Positions 15,246 to 42,287 of a stretch of 59,798 bases of DNA are shown in pieces. This DNA is from an uncultured Verrucomicrobia subdivision 3 bacterium. GTDB taxonomy: Bacteria; Verrucomicrobiota; Verrucomicrobiia; Limisphaerales; UBA11358. The notes under the pieces were generated by a model. That model saw only the letters and a program-made list of their open reading frames with translations, ran no database searches and was not told the DNA's origin. Every line of letters begins with the position of its first letter. Within the stretch, counting starts at the first letter, position 1. The stretch covers positions 1 through 59,798 of the forward strand of contig CAIPKV010000064.1 of NCBI GenBank assembly GCA_903865745.1. The letters run 5' to 3'. The position numbers and the translations under genes were made by a program.

Positions 15246-15349
15246 TCACGCAGCAATGGTTTTGGTCGGCGCACGTGTGGATTTACATTGCTATATTTTC
15301 TCGCTGCCCGGACAGTCCCCCTCTCAGCGGACAGGGCACACTGGGGTAT

Positions 15350-15763
15350 ATGGCCAATAAAAAACCAGCAACTAAAACCGGGTGGCATGTAACGTGGGGC
15401 TTGACGATGCCGGAATGTCGGGCGCTGGCGGGCGTCATCCGCCGCCTCCGCGAACAGCGCGGCTGGTCGTTAAGCATGCTCTCCAAGGCGTCCGGGGTTT
15501 CCCGACAAATGCTGGGCGGGGTGGAGGACGACCAGAAAAATCCCTCGCTGGACACCACTTCGCGCATCGCGGCGGCGTTTGGTATGCCCCTCTACCAATT
15601 ACATCTGCTGGCGTTTCGCTGGCTGCAACGGCAGCCGGCGAGCTGTCGTAAGTGCCACTATAGTTGCGTACACCGGGGGCGAGCAATGTGGTTAAATGTA
15701 TCTCGTCAATGCATACGCCCGCTAAAAACTCTTTTAGTCCCGCCCGCAATTCTTCCGGTCTAG
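15350..15763 (+). CDS. Xre-family HTH regulator with C-terminal Cys cluster
   Basis: 137 aa from the ATG at 15350 (MANKKPATK), preceded by GGGG a few bases upstream; an open frame continues 25 codons further up but has no support. Residues about 23-90 are a Xre/Cro-type helix-turn-helix: LRRLREQRGW-like RRLREQRGWSLSMLSKASG, then VSRQMLGGVEDDQKNPSL and IAAAFGMPLYQL. The tail has CRKCHYSCVHRG plus a later Cys, which could bind a metal or reflect disulfides. It lies 60 nt before the 21-nt repeat array and on the same strand as the array-linked gene at 16150, so it may regulate that unit. Its target is unknown. Confidence 0.75.
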   Translation: MANKKPATKTGWHVTWGLTMPECRALAGVIRRLREQRGWSLSMLSKASGVSRQMLGGVEDDQKNPSLDTTSRIAAAFGMPLYQLHLLAFRWLQRQPASCRKCHYSCVHRGRAMWLNVSRQCIRPLKTLLVPPAILPV

Positions 15764-15823
15764 TCCCAGCCCCGCGGTATCACATTGGTCATTGCTGGCC
15801 GCCTCAAAATAGCCCGCGCAGCC

Positions 15824-16117
15824 GTTGCGACAACTTTCTCAGCGGTTCGGACAACTTCCCGAATGGTTCCGCCAACTTCCTGAATGGTTCGGACAACTTT
15901 CCGGAAGTCCGCGGCAACTTCCCGGAAGCTTCAGCCAACTTCCTCGAAGGTCCGGCCAATTGTCCGGAAGTCCCGGCCAATTGGCTGAGGGTTCGAGACA
16001 ACTTCCTGAACGGTTGCGCCAACCTGCCGGGGCGTCCCGCCAATTGTCTGAGAGGCTGCGCCAACTTGCTGAAACATTCAGCCAATTGACAAAACCATTC
16101 CGCCAATTCAAATAAAC
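15824..16117 (+). repeat. 21-nt degenerate tandem repeat array, 14 units
   Basis: Fourteen consecutive 21-nt units with no insertion or deletion, starting at 15824, 15845, 15866 and so on to 16097. Each carries a core of the form CAACTT or CAATTG at the same offset. The rest varies (for example GAATGGTTC in early units, GGAAGTCC in middle units). Because 21 is seven codons, most frames stay open and encode heptads such as QLPEWFG, but no frame has a good start signal. The array ends 32 nt before the ATG of the gene at 16150. Some unit pairs could fold (GGAAGT with ACTTCC; GCCAATTGGC is a palindrome). Confidence 0.9.
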
Positions 16118-16149
16118 ATCAAAACAAACTCTCAAACACACTAAAAATC

Positions 16150-16833
16150 ATGCCAAAATCATATTTCATGCCCAAAAACGAAGCCGGCAAACGTAAATGG
16201 CTCAAAAACTACTCCGGCAAAATGCCCACGTACGCTCCCATCGTGGGGGCAACGAATTTGGAAGTCGCCCAATTGACCGCCGATGATGTCTTTTACAACT
16301 TTGTTTGCGATGCCCATGCTGCGCATACCCGGACGACGCAAGATTGGACGGCCTATAAACATCAAGCCGGCCACGGGACGAACCTCGGTGACATCCCGGT
16401 CACGCCCACACCCGGGACGCCGCCCGCCCTCGTGCCGCCGGATATTTTTGGCCGGGCCAGCAAATTGGCCGTCCGCATTAAAAGACATCCCGCCTGCACC
16501 GACGCCATTGCGCAAGACCTCGGCATCATTGGTGCGGAAATCGTGGTGGACCCGACCACCTACCAGCCCATCCTGAATCTATCGCTCAATGCCGGCCATC
16601 CGCACATCGGCTGGCCGAAGCTAGGCATGGACAGTTTGGAACTCTGGAAAGATTGCGGCGATGGCAAGGGCTCGGTCTTCCTGACCATCACCACGAATCC
16701 CGATTTCGCCGACCCCTCGCCGCTGCCCGCGCCCGGCATCAGCGCCGTCTGGAAATACAAGGGCATTTACCGGTTGACCGACGCCCAAGTCGGCCAGTGG
16801 AGCGACGTCGCAACCATCGGCGTGATCGGTTAA
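16150..16833 (+). CDS. Array-linked two-domain protein, helical N-terminus and Fn3-like C-terminus
   Basis: 227 aa, no signal peptide. Residues about 8-75 look helical (KWLKNYSGKMPTYAPIVG..., DDVFYNFVCDAHAAH, TQDWTAYKHQAG). A Pro/Thr linker (VTPTPGTPPALVPPDIFG) follows. The next segment, RHPACTDAIAQDLGIIG, leads to a beta-rich half ending WKYKGIYRLTDAQVGQWSDV, the pattern of the last strands of a fibronectin type III fold. It is clearly homologous to 40797-41492: LSLNAGHPHIGW against LSINGNRVFIGWGW, and YRLTDAQVGQWS against FRLNNAQVGQYS. Both genes have a 21-nt array immediately upstream. No ribosome-binding site is evident in the A-rich leader. Function unknown. Confidence 0.75.
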   Translation: MPKSYFMPKNEAGKRKWLKNYSGKMPTYAPIVGATNLEVAQLTADDVFYNFVCDAHAAHTRTTQDWTAYKHQAGHGTNLGDIPVTPTPGTPPALVPPDIFGRASKLAVRIKRHPACTDAIAQDLGIIGAEIVVDPTTYQPILNLSLNAGHPHIGWPKLGMDSLELWKDCGDGKGSVFLTITTNPDFADPSPLPAPGISAVWKYKGIYRLTDAQVGQWSDVATIGVIG

Positions 16834-17144: not shown

Positions 17145-18293
17145 GTGAATTCGCACAAGCGTCAGCGCGTGGTCTGCGGTATGAGCGGGGGAGTTGATTC
17201 CTCGGCGACGGCGGCGCTGTTGATTGAACAAGGCTTCGATGTCATCGGCATTACGCTAAAACTCTGGCCGCAGGATTGCGTGAACCGCGCAGAAGATAAA
17301 TGTTGCGGGCCGCAGGCGGTTACGGACGCGCGGTCGGTCTGTCATAAGCTCGATATCCCGTATTATCTGGTGGATGAATCGGCGGATTTCCAGAAGCACG
17401 TCATTCAATACTTCGCGGATGAATATAAGGCCGGGCGCACGCCGAATCCGTGCGTGATGTGCAATCAGAATTTAAAATTCGGCCGGCTCATTGACCGCGC
17501 GGATCAGCTCGGGGCGGAGTTTATTGCCACCGGACATTTTGCGCGGGTTGAAAAAGCGGGTAGCAGTGGACGTGAGTCCGCTCCATCTTCTCTAACAGAT
17601 AATAATCAGAGCCGACTCACGTCGACTGCTACGCGATATTTATTGAAGCGCGGTAAAGATTTGCGGAAGGATCAAAGTTATTTCCTCTTCTCGCTCCGGC
17701 AGGACCAACTGGCGCGCGTCATTTTTCCGCTGGGTGAAAAAACCAAGAGCGATACCCGCGAAGTGGCGCGGCATTGTAATCTTAAGACGGCTGATAAGGA
17801 GGAGAGCATGGAGATTTGCTTCGTGCCGGATAATAATTACGGCGGCTTTCTGCAGTCGGCTAATCTGGTGCAGAAGCATCGCGGTGAGATTGTGGATTTG
17901 CATGGCCACGTGCTGGGCCAGCATGACGGCATCGAATTTTACACCATCGGCCAGCGCAAGGGGCTGGGCATCACCACCGCCAAGCCGGTTTATGTGGTGG
18001 AGTTGGATGCGGAAAATAACCGCGTGGTCGTGGGCGACGACTCGGCGCTGGACCGCGATGAATTTGTGGCTGACCGGTGCAACTGGCATCCGTTTGAAAC
18101 CTTGACGGAGCCCATCGAAGTGTTGGCGAAAATCCGTTACAACCATCCCGGCACCCCGGCAACGGTGACGCCGCTGGAAAATAATACGGTGCGGGTGAAG
18201 CTGCATGTGCCGCAGCGCGCCATCACGCCCGGGCAGGCGGCGGTTTTCTATCAGGACGATCTGGTCGTCGGCGGCGGGTGGATCAGGCGGTAA
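17145..18293 (+). CDS. mnmA: tRNA-specific 2-thiouridylase
   Basis: 382 aa. Installs sulfur at C2 of the wobble uridine (s2U34) in Lys, Glu and Gln tRNAs. The ATP-pyrophosphatase loop is G12-M-S-G-G-V-D-S-S20. The two catalytic cysteines are C103 (TPNPCVMC) and C225 (MEICFVPDN). The start is a GTG at 17145; the preceding region is gene-free. Residues about 138-162 (AGSSGRESAP...TSTAT) are not family sequence: they are encoded by a 73-bp near-perfect palindromic repeat lying in frame between ATGHFARVE and the KDQSYFLF motif. The frame is preserved, so the enzyme may still work with a surface insertion. It ends 11 nt inside the convergent aldo/keto reductase gene. Confidence 0.95.
   Translation: MNSHKRQRVVCGMSGGVDSSATAALLIEQGFDVIGITLKLWPQDCVNRAEDKCCGPQAVTDARSVCHKLDIPYYLVDESADFQKHVIQYFADEYKAGRTPNPCVMCNQNLKFGRLIDRADQLGAEFIATGHFARVEKAGSSGRESAPSSLTDNNQSRLTSTATRYLLKRGKDLRKDQSYFLFSLRQDQLARVIFPLGEKTKSDTREVARHCNLKTADKEESMEICFVPDNNYGGFLQSANLVQKHRGEIVDLHGHVLGQHDGIEFYTIGQRKGLGITTAKPVYVVELDAENNRVVVGDDSALDRDEFVADRCNWHPFETLTEPIEVLAKIRYNHPGTPATVTPLENNTVRVKLHVPQRAITPGQAAVFYQDDLVVGGGWIRR
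17560..17632. repeat. Palindromic REP-like element inside mnmA
   Basis: Arms 17560-17583 and 17609-17632 are inverted copies matching at 22 of 24 positions (outer end GTAGCAGTGGACGTGAGTCC), with a 25-nt loop. Such GTAGCAG...CTGCTAC palindromes normally sit between genes; here the element is read through in frame as part of mnmA. Confidence 0.85.
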
Positions 18294-19197
18294 CCAGCGT
18301 CGCGGCCCGGGCGTTGGACCGGACTTGGTCGGGATTTTTACAGCCGCAGATGACGGAGGAGACAATGGGGTTTTGCAGGCACCAGGCGATGGCCCAATTC
18401 GCCATGGAGACGCCAGCCGGTACTTCCTCGGTTTGCAGGCGCGCGACTTCGGCCAGATCACGTTTTAGCTTAGCTTCATCCATTTTGGAGCGCACATCAT
18501 TGGCGGCGAAGGTGGCACCCGCTTTATATTTGCCGGTGAGCAATCCGCTGGCGAGCGGCACGCGGCCGATGATGCCCAGATTTTTTTGCTGGGCGTGAGG
18601 GAAGAATAATTGTTCCGGGCGGCGGTCAAGCCGGTTGTAAAAAACTTGGAGCGCCTCCGCGCCGAACTGGGCCGCTGCGCGCGCCTGAAGTTCACTGCCC
18701 TTCTGCATGATTGAAACACCGAGGTGGCGGATTTTGCCGGTGCGTTTTTGTTCGGCGAGAAAACTCCAGAGCTTTTCGTTCTGAAATAATTCATCGGAGC
18801 CGGAATGAAATTGATAGAGATCAATGGTGTCGACGCGCAGCGCCTTGAGCGAGGCTTCAAGCTGGGCTTGCACGCCAGTCACGGAAAAGTCGTCGTCACG
18901 GTTCAGGAAGCTGTTGAAGCGATGGCCGAATTTGGTGGCAACAATCCATTGCGAGCGGTCCCGGCGCGACAAATAATCGCCCACTAATTTTTCCGAGAGA
19001 TGATCTGGCCCGTAGCATTCGGCCGTGTCGATGAGGTTGAGGCCGGCGGCGGTGGCGGTGTCGAGAATGGCGTCCACTTCAGGCTGCGAAAAATTTACGC
19101 CCCATTCACCGCCGAATTGCCAGGTACCAAGGCCGATGACGGACGGGCGGAGGCCGGTCTGGCCGAGAGGACGATAGCGCATGTAGCGATGTTGCAA
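18283..19197 (-). CDS. Aldo/keto reductase
   Basis: 304 aa, TIM-barrel NADPH-dependent oxidoreductase. The catalytic tetrad is visible as D57 (LIDTAECYG), Y62, K89 (IVATKFG) and H131 (LYQFHSGS). The C-terminal SVICGCKNPDQVRSN matches the cofactor-binding helix that contacts the 2'-phosphate of NADPH. Closest in style to the general bacterial aldo/keto reductases with broad carbonyl substrates; the physiological substrate cannot be inferred. Start MQHRYMRYRPLGQTG; MRYRPLGQTG at codon 6 is an alternative. It converges with mnmA and overlaps it by 11 nt. Confidence 0.9.
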   Translation of the reverse strand: MQHRYMRYRPLGQTGLRPSVIGLGTWQFGGEWGVNFSQPEVDAILDTATAAGLNLIDTAECYGPDHLSEKLVGDYLSRRDRSQWIVATKFGHRFNSFLNRDDDFSVTGVQAQLEASLKALRVDTIDLYQFHSGSDELFQNEKLWSFLAEQKRTGKIRHLGVSIMQKGSELQARAAAQFGAEALQVFYNRLDRRPEQLFFPHAQQKNLGIIGRVPLASGLLTGKYKAGATFAANDVRSKMDEAKLKRDLAEVARLQTEEVPAGVSMANWAIAWCLQNPIVSSVICGCKNPDQVRSNARAATLVTA

Positions 19198-23318: not shown

Positions 23319-23681
23319 ATGGGCAGCACCACTCTACTTCGCAATTTCGTCATCGTGACGGATGGATTGGGAAAACTGTTGCCTACAGTCGGTGCTCAGA
23401 CCCGCGCCGACAATGCCTTAACTTCTGCGGTAAACGCACTATCCGATGCTGTTGGCGGTCTAACTTTCGATGTTGAAGCCTTAACTTCCGATGTCGGCGC
23501 ACTAACTTCTGATGTTGACGTGCTAACCGGTGATGTTGACGTGCTAACTTTTGATGTAAATGCACTAACTTTTGATGTTGGCGGCTTAACTTTTGATGTT
23601 GAAGCCCTAACTTTTGATATTTTTGGCCAAGAAATCAATGGCAATGCCCTGTTTGGAAACACTTTATGCAAAAAAACATGA
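23319..23681 (+). CDS. Possible heptad-repeat ORF spanning the 21-nt array
   Basis: 120-codon frame from ATG 23319, starting MGSTTLLRNFVIVTDGLG. It reads through the whole array as heptads of the form ALTFDVG/VLTSDVD and ends FGQEINGNALFGNTL. Leu and Val are spaced 4 then 3, a classic coiled-coil pattern, and hydrophobicity is regular. Against it: no ribosome-binding site, and any indel-free 21-nt array gives an open frame by construction. In the other arrays the frames encode unrelated heptads. Listed as possible only. Confidence 0.3.
   Translation: MGSTTLLRNFVIVTDGLGKLLPTVGAQTRADNALTSAVNALSDAVGGLTFDVEALTSDVGALTSDVDVLTGDVDVLTFDVNALTFDVGGLTFDVEALTFDIFGQEINGNALFGNTLCKKT
23415..23624 (+). repeat. 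21-nt degenerate tandem repeat array, 10 units
   Basis: Ten 21-nt units without indels, starting at 23415, 23436, 23457 and so on to 23604. The conserved core is CTAACTTTTGATGTT, with variable ends such as GAAGCC, GACGTG and GGCGGC. Weaker units may extend to about 23666. The array ends 81 nt before the ATG of the gene at 23706. The leader before that ATG ends GAAATTATG, as does the leader of the minus-strand array gene at 41492. Confidence 0.9.
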
Positions 23682-23705: not shown

Positions 23706-24449
23706 ATGACTGACCCCACACCTCCGCCCGTCCCGCCGCCCACCCCCAAGACCAAACGCCCGCGCAGCACCGTCAACCGGGCGCACCTTGATGAGATCAA
23801 AAACTCCCGGACCGTGGCCAAAGCCGCCCTCGACCCGGCCAACACCGCCATGCTTGCCGGCGTGGAATTTGATGTCACCGTGCCGGCGCATATCAATACC
23901 CTGGCCGACAGCACCGAACACTCCATTGGCCAGCTCACCGGCACCCGCGTTCAGAAAAAGGATTTGACCGCCGCCGAAGCCCTTGCGCGCGATGCCCTGA
24001 TGGCTGTTATATTACCCATCCAAGCCGCCGCCAAACGCAAATACGGTGGCGATCACGACACCTTGCGGCACGCCTATTTTGTGGGCGATCACCTGCAGAA
24101 CGACACCCTGCTGGAAGTCCAGACCGCCAGCATCGCCATTCGCGACCGGCTCGTAATCATCCCGCCCGCCTTGGTGCCGCTGGACTTTTTGCCCGGCATC
24201 AAGGCCACGCAGATTACGGCGCTCTCCGCCGCCATCACCACCTACGCCACAGGCGTCATCGCGCCCGCCGAGCAGTTGAATCAAAACATGGGCGCGCTCA
24301 ACGACATCGTGGATAACGTCGCCGAGTTGGCGGGCCTGCGGCATCAGGTGCAACTCGCCGTCGAGCAGGCCATCCCGTGGCGCACGCCCGGCGTGGCGGC
24401 CACGCGCCTCGCCTTCCTGCTCCCTGCGGACCGGCCGATGGTGGGGTGA
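23706..24449 (+). CDS. Array-linked helical protein of unknown function
   Basis: 247 aa, no signal peptide. A Pro-rich, then basic N-terminus (PPPVPPPTPKTKRPRST) is followed by an almost entirely alpha-helical body with Ala-rich heptads (TAAEALARDALMAVILPIQAA, IAPAEQLNQNMGALNDIVDN). It ends ATRLAFLLPADRPMVG. A C-terminal F-x-LPAxRP-type ending recurs in unknown proteins that I associate with Verrucomicrobia. It shares no visible similarity with the Fn3-like array proteins, but occupies the same position directly 3' of a 21-nt array. A terminator follows at 24472. Function unknown. Confidence 0.7.
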   Translation: MTDPTPPPVPPPTPKTKRPRSTVNRAHLDEIKNSRTVAKAALDPANTAMLAGVEFDVTVPAHINTLADSTEHSIGQLTGTRVQKKDLTAAEALARDALMAVILPIQAAAKRKYGGDHDTLRHAYFVGDHLQNDTLLEVQTASIAIRDRLVIIPPALVPLDFLPGIKATQITALSAAITTYATGVIAPAEQLNQNMGALNDIVDNVAELAGLRHQVQLAVEQAIPWRTPGVAATRLAFLLPADRPMVG

Positions 24450-36110: not shown

Positions 36111-36494
36111 ATGAGCACGAAATTGTTTGTGGGAAATCTTTCCTTCAACACCACGGAAAATGACCTGCAGGACGCGTTTGCCGCCCATGGACAGGTAGTC
36201 GAAGCCACCCTCATGATGGACCGGATGACCGGCCGTTCACGCGGGTTTGCGTTTGTCACCTACTCCACGCCCGAAGAAGCCCAGAAGGCTATCGCGGCGT
36301 TGAATGGTTCCCAATTGGATGGCCGCGCCTTGACGGTCAACATTGCGCGCCCGAAAGAAGAACGTCCCCCCGGCGGTGGCGGTCGTGATCGCGGTCCGCG
36401 TCGCGAAGGCGGCGGTGGCGGCGGTTATGGCGGCGGCGGTTACGGTGGTGGCGGCAGCCGTGGCGGTGGTGGTGGCGGTCGCGACCGTTACTAA
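36111..36494 (+). CDS. RNA-binding protein, single RRM with Gly-rich tail
   Basis: 127 aa. The RRM runs over residues 3-82: RNP2 is KLFVGNLSF and RNP1 is SRGFAFVTY, both intact. After IARPKEERPPGG comes a low-complexity Gly/Arg/Tyr tail (residues 85-127, GGYGGGGYGGGG). Bacterial proteins of this layout occur in cyanobacteria and many Gram-negatives and are often cold-induced. Possible roles are RNA chaperoning and mRNA binding. A stem-loop terminator follows 19 nt after the stop. Confidence 0.93.
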   Translation: MSTKLFVGNLSFNTTENDLQDAFAAHGQVVEATLMMDRMTGRSRGFAFVTYSTPEEAQKAIAALNGSQLDGRALTVNIARPKEERPPGGGGRDRGPRREGGGGGGYGGGGYGGGGSRGGGGGGRDRY

Positions 36495-36512
36495 TCTTTA
36501 ATTTAATCATTG

Positions 36513-36552
36513 GCTTGGGCAGCATTGTAAAAGGTGTTGCCCAAGCTTTTTT
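36513..36552 (+). terminator. Intrinsic terminator after the RRM gene
   Basis: A GCTTGGGCA / TGCCCAAGC stem (36513-36521 and 36538-36546) is followed by TTTTTT. It lies between the RRM gene and infA. Confidence 0.85.
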
Positions 36553-40742: not shown

Positions 40743-40765
40743 ATTACTAACAAAATTGTTAAAGG

Positions 40766-40791
40766 ACGGGGCTTGTAAAGACAAGCCCCGT
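40766..40791 (-). terminator. Hairpin terminator for the 40797 gene
   Basis: A perfect 11-bp inverted repeat, ACGGGGCTTGT / ACAAGCCCCGT, with a 4-nt loop lies 5 nt beyond the minus-strand stop codon. There is no long T-run after it, so Rho-independence is uncertain. Confidence 0.6.
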
Positions 40792-40796
40792 TTGAA

Positions 40797-41492
40797 TCAC
40801 ACTCCCACCATGATGCTGACGGGGCTGCTGTATTGGCCGACTTGCGCGTTGTTCAGGCGGAAGATGGCGCGGTAAGTCCATTTGGTCGGCACGGCGGGGA
40901 ACGGCGTGGGGTCGGTGAAACCGGGCGTGGTGCAATAGGTCAGCAGGACGAAGCCTTTGGCATCGTTGCGGTCCACCTGCATTTCGAGTTGGTCCAGGTA
41001 GGCTTGATAATTTTGCCAGCCCCACCCGATGAATACCCGGTTGCCGTTGATGCTCAAAGTGAGCAACGGCATGACCTGGGTTAAATCTGGCGGCGTGATT
41101 TCTACGCCCAAGATGTCCAAGGCTGCGCCAATGGCATCGTTGTAGCCGGGTTTGTTATAACAAGTTTGGATGAAGGCGCGGTGGCGCGCCTCTATGCCCG
41201 GATCAACCGGAGGCACGGAGGTGGGTAGCACCGGTAGGCCCGGCTCCGTCGCCATGCCCACCGCGCCGCCATCGCGCATTAAATCCTTCCATTTGGTGAA
41301 TTGCTGGGCATCCCGGTGCATGATGGCGTTGCATCCGAGCCAGTAGTTGAAGGCCAAGGCATCCGCGGCTTGGGAAGCCACTTCCTCCGGGGTAATTTTG
41401 AGCACGGCCGCGTAGGTGGGGAGGTTGGTTTTGCAGGTGAGCAGCTGGGCGCCAAAGGCCATGTCATTGGGTTTAATTGCGTTCTTTTTCAT
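40797..41492 (-). CDS. Array-linked two-domain protein, helical N-terminus and Fn3-like C-terminus (paralogue)
   Basis: 231 aa, no signal peptide. The helical N-terminal part (EEVASQAADALAFNYWLGCN, DAQQFTKWKDLMRDGG) is followed by a Pro-rich linker (GLPVLPTSVPPVDPG), then HRAFIQTCYNKPGYNDAIGA and a beta-rich part ending YRAIFRLNNAQVGQYSSPVS, fibronectin-III-like. It is homologous to the protein at 16150-16833 across the C-terminal half (for example LLTLSINGNRVFIGWGW and the NAQVGQ strand). It is preceded on its own strand by the 21-nt array at 41591-41989, with a 98-119-nt leader. Function unknown. Confidence 0.75.
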   Translation of the reverse strand: MKKNAIKPNDMAFGAQLLTCKTNLPTYAAVLKITPEEVASQAADALAFNYWLGCNAIMHRDAQQFTKWKDLMRDGGAVGMATEPGLPVLPTSVPPVDPGIEARHRAFIQTCYNKPGYNDAIGAALDILGVEITPPDLTQVMPLLTLSINGNRVFIGWGWQNYQAYLDQLEMQVDRNDAKGFVLLTYCTTPGFTDPTPFPAVPTKWTYRAIFRLNNAQVGQYSSPVSIMVGV

Positions 41493-41590
41493 AATTTCGA
41501 TTTATTACTACTAATTTTCTGTTGTGGAGGTTAACCGTGACCGAAAATGGCCGTTTTTAGCTCCGCGCGGCATATTTAATGATAAAGTGG

Positions 41591-41989
41591 ACATTTCAAA
41601 GCATTCTAGAGGTCGGTAGAATGATTTTAATGGTCCGTAGAACCATTCTACCGGTTGAAATAATGATTCTAACGGTTGGTAGAATGGTTTTGATGGTCGG
41701 AAGAATGATTCTAGCGGTCCGTAGAATGATTGTAACCGTTGGTAGAACCATTCTGATGGTTGGAAGAATGGTTGTAATGGTTCGCAGAATGATTTTGAAG
41801 GTCGGTAGAATCGTTGTAATGGTCGGTAGAATGATTTTGAAGGTCCGTAGAACCATTCTGGTAGTCCGAAGAATGGTTGTAATAGTCCGCAGAATAATTC
41901 TATTAGTCCGTCGCTGGATTCTACCAAACCAAAGAGTCTTTTTAAAAAGCTGGCCAAGGCTTGGAAATGTCCGTGGCTGGATTCTTCGG
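41591..41989 (-). repeat. 21-nt degenerate tandem repeat array, 15 clean units plus weaker edges
   Basis: Units start at 41612, 41633, 41654 and so on to 41906, each 21 nt with no indels. One weak unit precedes at 41591. A unit in phase at 41969-41989 (GTCCGTGGCTGGATTCTTCG) shows that the array extends with decay. The plus-strand core is GTAGAATGATT; in several units AGAATGATTCT or AGAATAATTCT is a perfect palindrome. On the minus strand it encodes heptads such as FYGPLKS and LPEWFYG. The array is upstream of the minus-strand gene 40797-41492. The remaining part of 41990-42287 has no supported gene. Confidence 0.9.
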
Positions 41990-42287
41990 AGCCGTCCAAG
42001 GGTTTGTCGGAACGGTTAAATGATTTGAAAAGTTCGGCGTGGCAATAATCGGAACCGTAGCTGGCCGTAAGATTAAAGGGGCGCGCTGCGGCCAACCCAG
42101 CCGGGGAAAACACTGCACCGCAAAATGTCGCGCTTATCAAGTAGACTGAACTTGTGGGCAGGCGAAAAAATATACCTACCCGAACTTGTCATTTACTTGG
42201 CTTTATTTGTTGCCCTCAAAACCGCCGTGAGCCCCAAATATATTTGAAACGTGCGTTTTAAATCGCGTTTGGTCGCGAACCAGCTCC

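Follow-up and report, generated by a model that had tools for sequence, protein, structure and literature searches.

Iteron arrays of plasmid origins are direct repeats of about 20-22 bp, spaced by two helical turns and located directly upstream of a rep gene, and co-resident copies need different iteron sequences because of incompatibility. REP and REPIN sequences with their RAYT transposases form extragenic palindromic families in which many copies stand without a gene while some adjoin one (PMC3116915, PMC3733652). In type III toxin-antitoxin systems such as ToxIN, tandem RNA repeats just before the toxin gene neutralise the toxin (PMC8860590, PMC5086642). Here we describe the pairing of a 21-bp repeat array with a small protein gene in a 59,798-nt stretch of DNA (the window) from an uncultured Verrucomicrobia subdivision 3 bacterium, which shares some features with each of these systems and departs from all of them in others.

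The gene at 40797-41492 on the minus strand is an intact open reading frame encoding 231 amino acids. Directly on its 5' side, as the preliminary description had reported, TRF finds a 21-nt array (41603-41902, 14.3 copies, 0% indels), and a laxer lag-21 test widens the periodic region to about 41551-42023, with a clean core at 41603-41910. The lag-21 identity reaches 0.71 (over 105 nt) and the lag-63 identity 0.79, compared with 0.30 at lag 20, 0.36 at lag 22 and at most 0.47 in shuffled sequences (n = 2000). The array of 41551-42023 is also dyad-symmetric (z about 3, p 0.003-0.0075). The leader between the array and the ATG (41493-41550, minus strand) holds TTTTCGGTCACGGTTAAC, the complement of 41530-41547, and nearly the same sequence is present in the paralogues L002 and L010. 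On the far side of the array lies a conserved block (42056-42188, minus strand) whose 133 bp match the paralogous locus on C85 at 92% identity; the two genes of this C64/C85 pair are 82% identical, while the arrays in between are unrelated. Just 3' of the stop codon, a GC-rich inverted repeat (40765-40790, minus strand) looks terminator-like by eye; it was not called by a consensus terminator scan, which demands a T-tract.

A homologous gene (227 aa) lies at 16150-16833 on the plus strand, and the proposed homology holds, with 34% identity between the two proteins (E 2e-32). Its array at 15774-16163 has a lag-21 identity of 0.70 and significant dyad symmetry (p 0.005), and its profile correlates at 0.92 with that of the orthologue's array in genome G014. 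Both arrays had been described as free of indels, which is true of the one at 41603-41902 but not of this one, where TRF at period 21 gives about 7% indels. Similarly, period, position and orientation had been named as the conserved properties of the two pairs; period and the position 5' of the gene are indeed conserved, whereas orientation means little since the units are nearly dyad-symmetric, and symmetry takes its place. Beyond the 15774-16163 array, an ORF at 15275-15763 (plus strand) matches XRE-type HTH profiles of PADLOC (best E 4e-12) and is single-copy in its own genome at the similarity searched. An XRE-type HTH ORF is seen on the far side of some arrays only (L006, L009, where it is upstream of the array, and in decayed form L008), and a search for a general association of such ORFs with arrays gave only one clear match in the genome at that similarity.

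The window contains a third array at 23358-23675 (lag-21 identity 0.75), whose dyad symmetry is not significant (p 0.12). It precedes an unrelated, single-copy gene for a 247-aa protein at 23706-24449 (plus strand) that has no curated family match. An ORF at 23319-23681 spans this array and reads as LTSDVxA heptads whose third-base changes look synonymous. This one array might thus be coding, although its codon periodicity was not significant. A weak, GC-rich 21-nt periodicity at 36342-36518, within the ORF 36111-36494, is probably a glycine-rich coding repeat that lies outside the array class.

The linkage of gene and array is real and far larger in extent than the preliminary description had it. 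Ten copies of the family were found by protein search in the 3.63-Mb genome, and about fifteen matches by profile. All of the first ten copies have a 21- or 42-nt-period array within 600 nt upstream, with a different unit sequence at each, and none has an array downstream. Taking an upstream lag-21/42 identity of at least 0.5 as the criterion, and considering copies with enough upstream sequence, we found an array upstream of 51/52 family copies from this genome and its Verrucomicrobiota relatives, as opposed to 51/775 genes called over 1.1 Mb of the same genome, a background count that takes in the family's own members (Fisher P about 2e-51). The suggestion that the pairing exceeds coincidence, originally based on two loci, is borne out by this comparison; arrays are more frequent upstream of this family than elsewhere, and the link extends to other classes and to Acidobacteriota. 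At 61 further copies, from other Verrucomicrobiota classes and the class of one Acidobacteriota genome, 51 have an array of 21, 42 or 63 nt, which brings the pooled count to 102/113. The roughly 10% of copies that lack a clear 21-fold array are mostly acidobacterial, and the exceptions to the 21-nt rule include periods of 14, 40 and 41 nt; arrays with a 14-nt instead of a 21-nt period occur at L207, L286 and L039. Among the acidobacterial arrays, some come close to perfect repetition (about 90% identity over about 20 units), and some have no significant dyad symmetry. At L017, L021, L023, L024, L025, L038 and L047, a short upstream frame ending in a PSYLLEPGDPGYVPP-like sequence extends almost to the ATG of the family gene and is possibly a coupled small ORF.

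The protein of 40797-41492 is predicted to consist of a helical N-terminal part and a C-terminal FN3 domain. The model, built from a 19-sequence alignment (mean pLDDT 91.5), has helices at residues 10-74 (10-31 and 35-74) and 100-125 (with a helix called at 100-112), followed by strands at 145-229. Residues 136-231 form an FN3 beta sandwich whose structural matches are mostly FN3 domains (Z 10.7-11.6, rmsd 2.0-2.8, about 90 residues aligned). The fold of this C-terminal domain is clearly that of FN3 proteins, but FN3 makes up only the C-terminal part. The N-terminal part modelled alone, without an alignment, gave a poor model (pLDDT 46), and we found no known family that covers it together with an array. 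The full protein has no family assignment in Pfam, NCBIfam, PHROG or PADLOC and no relative in the PDB by sequence, and searches of a plasmid collection and of viral contigs for the family returned no match. In Pfam and NCBIfam, neither an HUH/Y1 transposase nor a Rep or winged-helix family matches it. A ToxN-like endoribonuclease is likewise without a sequence-family match.

A typical array has about 15-18 units of 21 bp, with lengths centred on 315 bp and narrowly spread, and in both phyla almost every array keeps a period of 21 (or 42/63). By permutation of the 21 columns (p<0.05), dyad symmetry is significant in 42/50 family arrays and 37/53 arrays of a genome census described below; AAAGGGGTGCACCCCTTT, GGCTGGCGCCAGCC and GGGACGTCCC are examples of such units. 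At a period of 21, the dyads recur every 10.5 bp, that is, once per helical turn. Because 21 nt also equals seven codons, we considered that the arrays might encode heptad-repeat (coiled-coil) peptides. Open frames do run through many arrays, including the LTSDVxA ORF of 23319-23681 and a hydrophobic heptad ORF at 41579-42019 (plus strand), but a repeating seven-codon unit gives an open frame by expectation, and the frames are inconsistent from array to array. Column variability lacks a period-3 component, with codon periodicity at p<0.05 in only 2/103 arrays (1/53 census, 1/50 family), which indicates that the arrays as a class are not coding. This rules out coding heptads as a general explanation, and we regard the reading as extremely improbable. 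Nor is there support for the idea that an LPEWF heptad, encoded in places by both arrays first noticed in the window, is a trace of their common origin: the arrays lack codon periodicity, one of them contains a single LPEWF and the other two, and their profiles correlate at 0.44, below the null maximum of 0.54. We take the heptad to be a chance occurrence.

The arrays could instead act as RNA. Each would be transcribed, either into a leader rich in hairpins or into a repeat RNA that is then processed, and the RNA would be the functional partner of the downstream protein, much like the antitoxin of a type III toxin-antitoxin system; standalone arrays would then be solitary RNAs. The layout is the same as in ToxIN, with tandem non-coding repeats that vary between families directly 5' of a small protein gene, and the arrays of co-resident paralogues differ, as this reading would have it. 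The folds of array transcripts are also more stable than those of dinucleotide shuffles (mean z about -3.9) and, for family arrays, than those of column-permuted periodic controls (mean z -2.6). However, the two strands fold equally well. An RNA hairpin constraint predicts more G-T than A-C mispairs on the transcribed strand, and the gene strand carries 486 G-T versus 533 A-C mispairs, with 15 arrays each way, indicating no RNA-strand bias. Arms within one unit pair no better than arms of neighbouring units, and arm-to-arm complementarity falls with unit distance exactly as direct identity does, implying that the symmetry belongs to the whole array and not to single hairpins. A local pairing excess seen in a first covariation test was lost under a separation-matched profile, leaving an RNA hairpin constraint unsupported by either wobble bias or local covariation. 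Rfam and PADLOC contain no match, the well-modelled part of the protein is FN3 and no known endoribonuclease fold, and, unlike the ToxIN repeats, the arrays have about 15 short symmetric units and can be free-standing. We therefore consider the RNA reading unlikely, and to judge from these sequence patterns, the array symmetry appears to act at the DNA level. The absence of a pairing advantage within units also means that homogenisation fits the symmetry as well as selection for binding sites does.

The arrays can turn over while the genes that they precede are kept. In paralogue pairs, the flanks are 81-100% identical and array identity drops to chance within one or two units of the edge; in C28/C52, for example, 412 bp of flank are 86% identical and the genes 91%, with unrelated arrays. 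From the coordinates, the flank-to-flank distance differs by 21 nt in both C64/C85 and C28/C52. We also observed a dispersed palindromic repeat resembling GTAGGGAAGGCGCGCTGCGCCGTCC in the 5' flanks of L008 (about 850-1000), L009, L010 and C85:62606. Many cross-species orthologues, in contrast, have arrays with profile correlations of 0.62-0.92, such as L006/L019 (0.92 at 83% protein identity), L022/L039 (0.89), L034/L049 (0.83) and L040/L183 (0.83). Co-resident paralogues reach at most 0.54, with L008/L009 at 0.38 (95% protein identity), L019/L034 at 0.54 (94%), L183/L191 at 0.37 (86%) and L001/L002 at 0.42 (79%). Pooling pairs of at least 60% protein identity, a correlation above 0.6 occurs in 0/7 same-genome and 18/45 cross-genome pairs (P 0.04 one-sided and 0.08 two-sided), in a small set of pairs that are not independent of one another. 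Short-read assembly may hide identical repeats, although pairs as diverged as these should assemble. The quartet L006, L019, L034 and L049 has two array types and, within G014, nearly identical proteins, which suggests that the proteins are homogenised while the arrays stay distinct. Since near-identical family proteins (224/235 residues) adjoin unrelated arrays, the FN3 protein cannot read the array sequence, and it is ruled out as a sequence-specific binder of the array by such 95%-identical pairs.

The arrays form a genome-wide class of palindromic units, many of them without a family gene, which goes beyond the preliminary description. In a census of 1.47 Mb (40% of the genome) we counted 77 arrays, a density of about one every 19 kb. 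Many are standalone and intergenic, lying between ordinary genes, convergent ones included, and some precede other small hypothetical genes (C52 at 33 kb, C85 at 62.6 kb, C64 at 23.4 kb). Contig ends tend to fall inside arrays (L100 1-357, L102 1-152, L117 1-195, L096 1-238), and array counts from short-read assemblies are probably too low. Four relatives that carry the family have four arrays in 277 kb, compared with none in 331 kb of four family-less relatives. Several standalone arrays match, along most of the array, a gene-linked one at an otherwise unrelated locus: C32:112153 and the array of C8 are 83% identical over 269 bp, and C24/C69, C1/C16 and C12/C85 are further such pairs. The arrays at C28:53317 and C85:62606, likewise at unrelated loci, are 88% identical over 284 bp. 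In all these pairs the shared flank amounts to only about 50-130 bp. The C22/C24 pair, identical over 126 bp (100%), is probably one array split by a contig break.

Such dispersed, extragenic palindromic DNA in families, with standalone and gene-linked copies, resembles REP/REPIN sequences, and the arrays might be miniature transposable repeats of that type, mobilised by a tyrosine (Y1) transposase acting in trans, the FN3 gene being a passenger. By eye, a Y1/IS200-like transposase ORF adjoins a 21-bp array at L157 in G017 (18002-18466), but we noticed no Y1 gene beside any other array that we inspected. The linked protein, modelled as helical plus FN3, has no HUH/Y1 match, unlike RAYT, and REPs keep tagged motifs, whereas these arrays are periodic tandem repeats of 21 bp (about 15 units) with free sequence. 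We find this reading very unlikely. No transposase, terminal inverted repeats or target-site duplications of the element were defined, and mobility is consequently deduced from homology alone.

It could also be that the arrays are neutral minisatellites without function, homogenised by slippage and gene conversion and made symmetric by palindrome-prone template switching, with the gene link inherited by hitch-hiking. Homogeneity falls smoothly with unit distance, sequence is unconstrained between paralogues, and many arrays have no special gene beside them, all of which this account would predict. Yet slippage alone does not predict a period of 21 (42/63) across phyla or the narrow array length, a gene linkage of 102/113 between phyla requires selection for persistence, and many orthologues keep the array sequence at 62-88% protein identity. 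We consider this explanation unlikely.

The linkage, period, position, symmetry, non-coding nature, array turnover and gene-less copies are direct observations, and we consider this description of the element strong; the mechanism is what we infer from it. Our preferred explanation, which we hold tentatively and at somewhat less than an even chance, is an element in two parts that is dispersed and probably mobile. Its array would be a DNA platform bound by protein, in the manner of an operator or of iterons, and its gene-less derivatives would be MITE-like. The first part would be the non-coding array, about 15-18 units of 21 bp with dyad symmetry, and the second the helical plus FN3 gene close behind it. 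As 21 bp are two turns of B-DNA, dyads every 10.5 bp would lie on one helix face, and the double-stranded array may act in cis as a platform on which a dimeric DNA-binding factor, encoded elsewhere and distinct from the FN3 protein, loads cooperatively. The loaded factor would control expression or maintenance of the element, gene-less arrays would be non-autonomous derivatives of the same kind of DNA, and co-resident gene-linked arrays would drift apart in sequence, so avoiding competition or recombination. This explanation is favoured by the 102/113 linkage, the lack of codon periodicity, the dyad symmetry, the absence of RNA-strand bias, the fixed period and length, the conserved flanks around unrelated arrays, the standalone copies of gene-linked arrays, the array-free, family-less relatives and the near-identical proteins beside unrelated arrays. 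The XRE-type HTH protein is a candidate array-binding regulator. Against this explanation, the XRE HTH gene adjoins only some arrays, and BLAST found no cognate of the 41551-42023 array elsewhere in its genome, standalone ones included.

As a platform, the array shares with iterons direct repeats near two helical turns (period 21) upstream of a gene. It differs from them in being chromosomal, in reaching up to 15 copies per genome, in occurring as standalone arrays, in having no match in the plasmid collection, in the dyad symmetry of the whole unit and in a linked protein that belongs to no recognised Rep or winged-helix family. We found no described system of this kind in the literature searched, of which full-text coverage was incomplete. 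A further possibility, which we consider decidedly unlikely, is that each array is a private address code by which a gene-linked array recognises its standalone sequence cognates at other chromosomal sites. Recognition would proceed via DNA pairing or an array-derived guide with the FN3 protein as a generic partner, and co-resident codes would have to differ.

For bacteria it is unusual that spacing and symmetry are fixed while the letters are free, and that such a pattern goes with one uncharacterised protein family in two phyla. The pattern implies a reader of array geometry, or of a private sequence copy, and not of a conserved motif. Because it is invisible to motif- and homology-based annotation, the layout may be widespread yet unnoticed. 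That orthologues keep the array while co-resident paralogues do not looks like an incompatibility rule, which is testable in cultured carriers. If the address-code reading were true, the element would represent a new kind of sequence-addressed chromosomal system.
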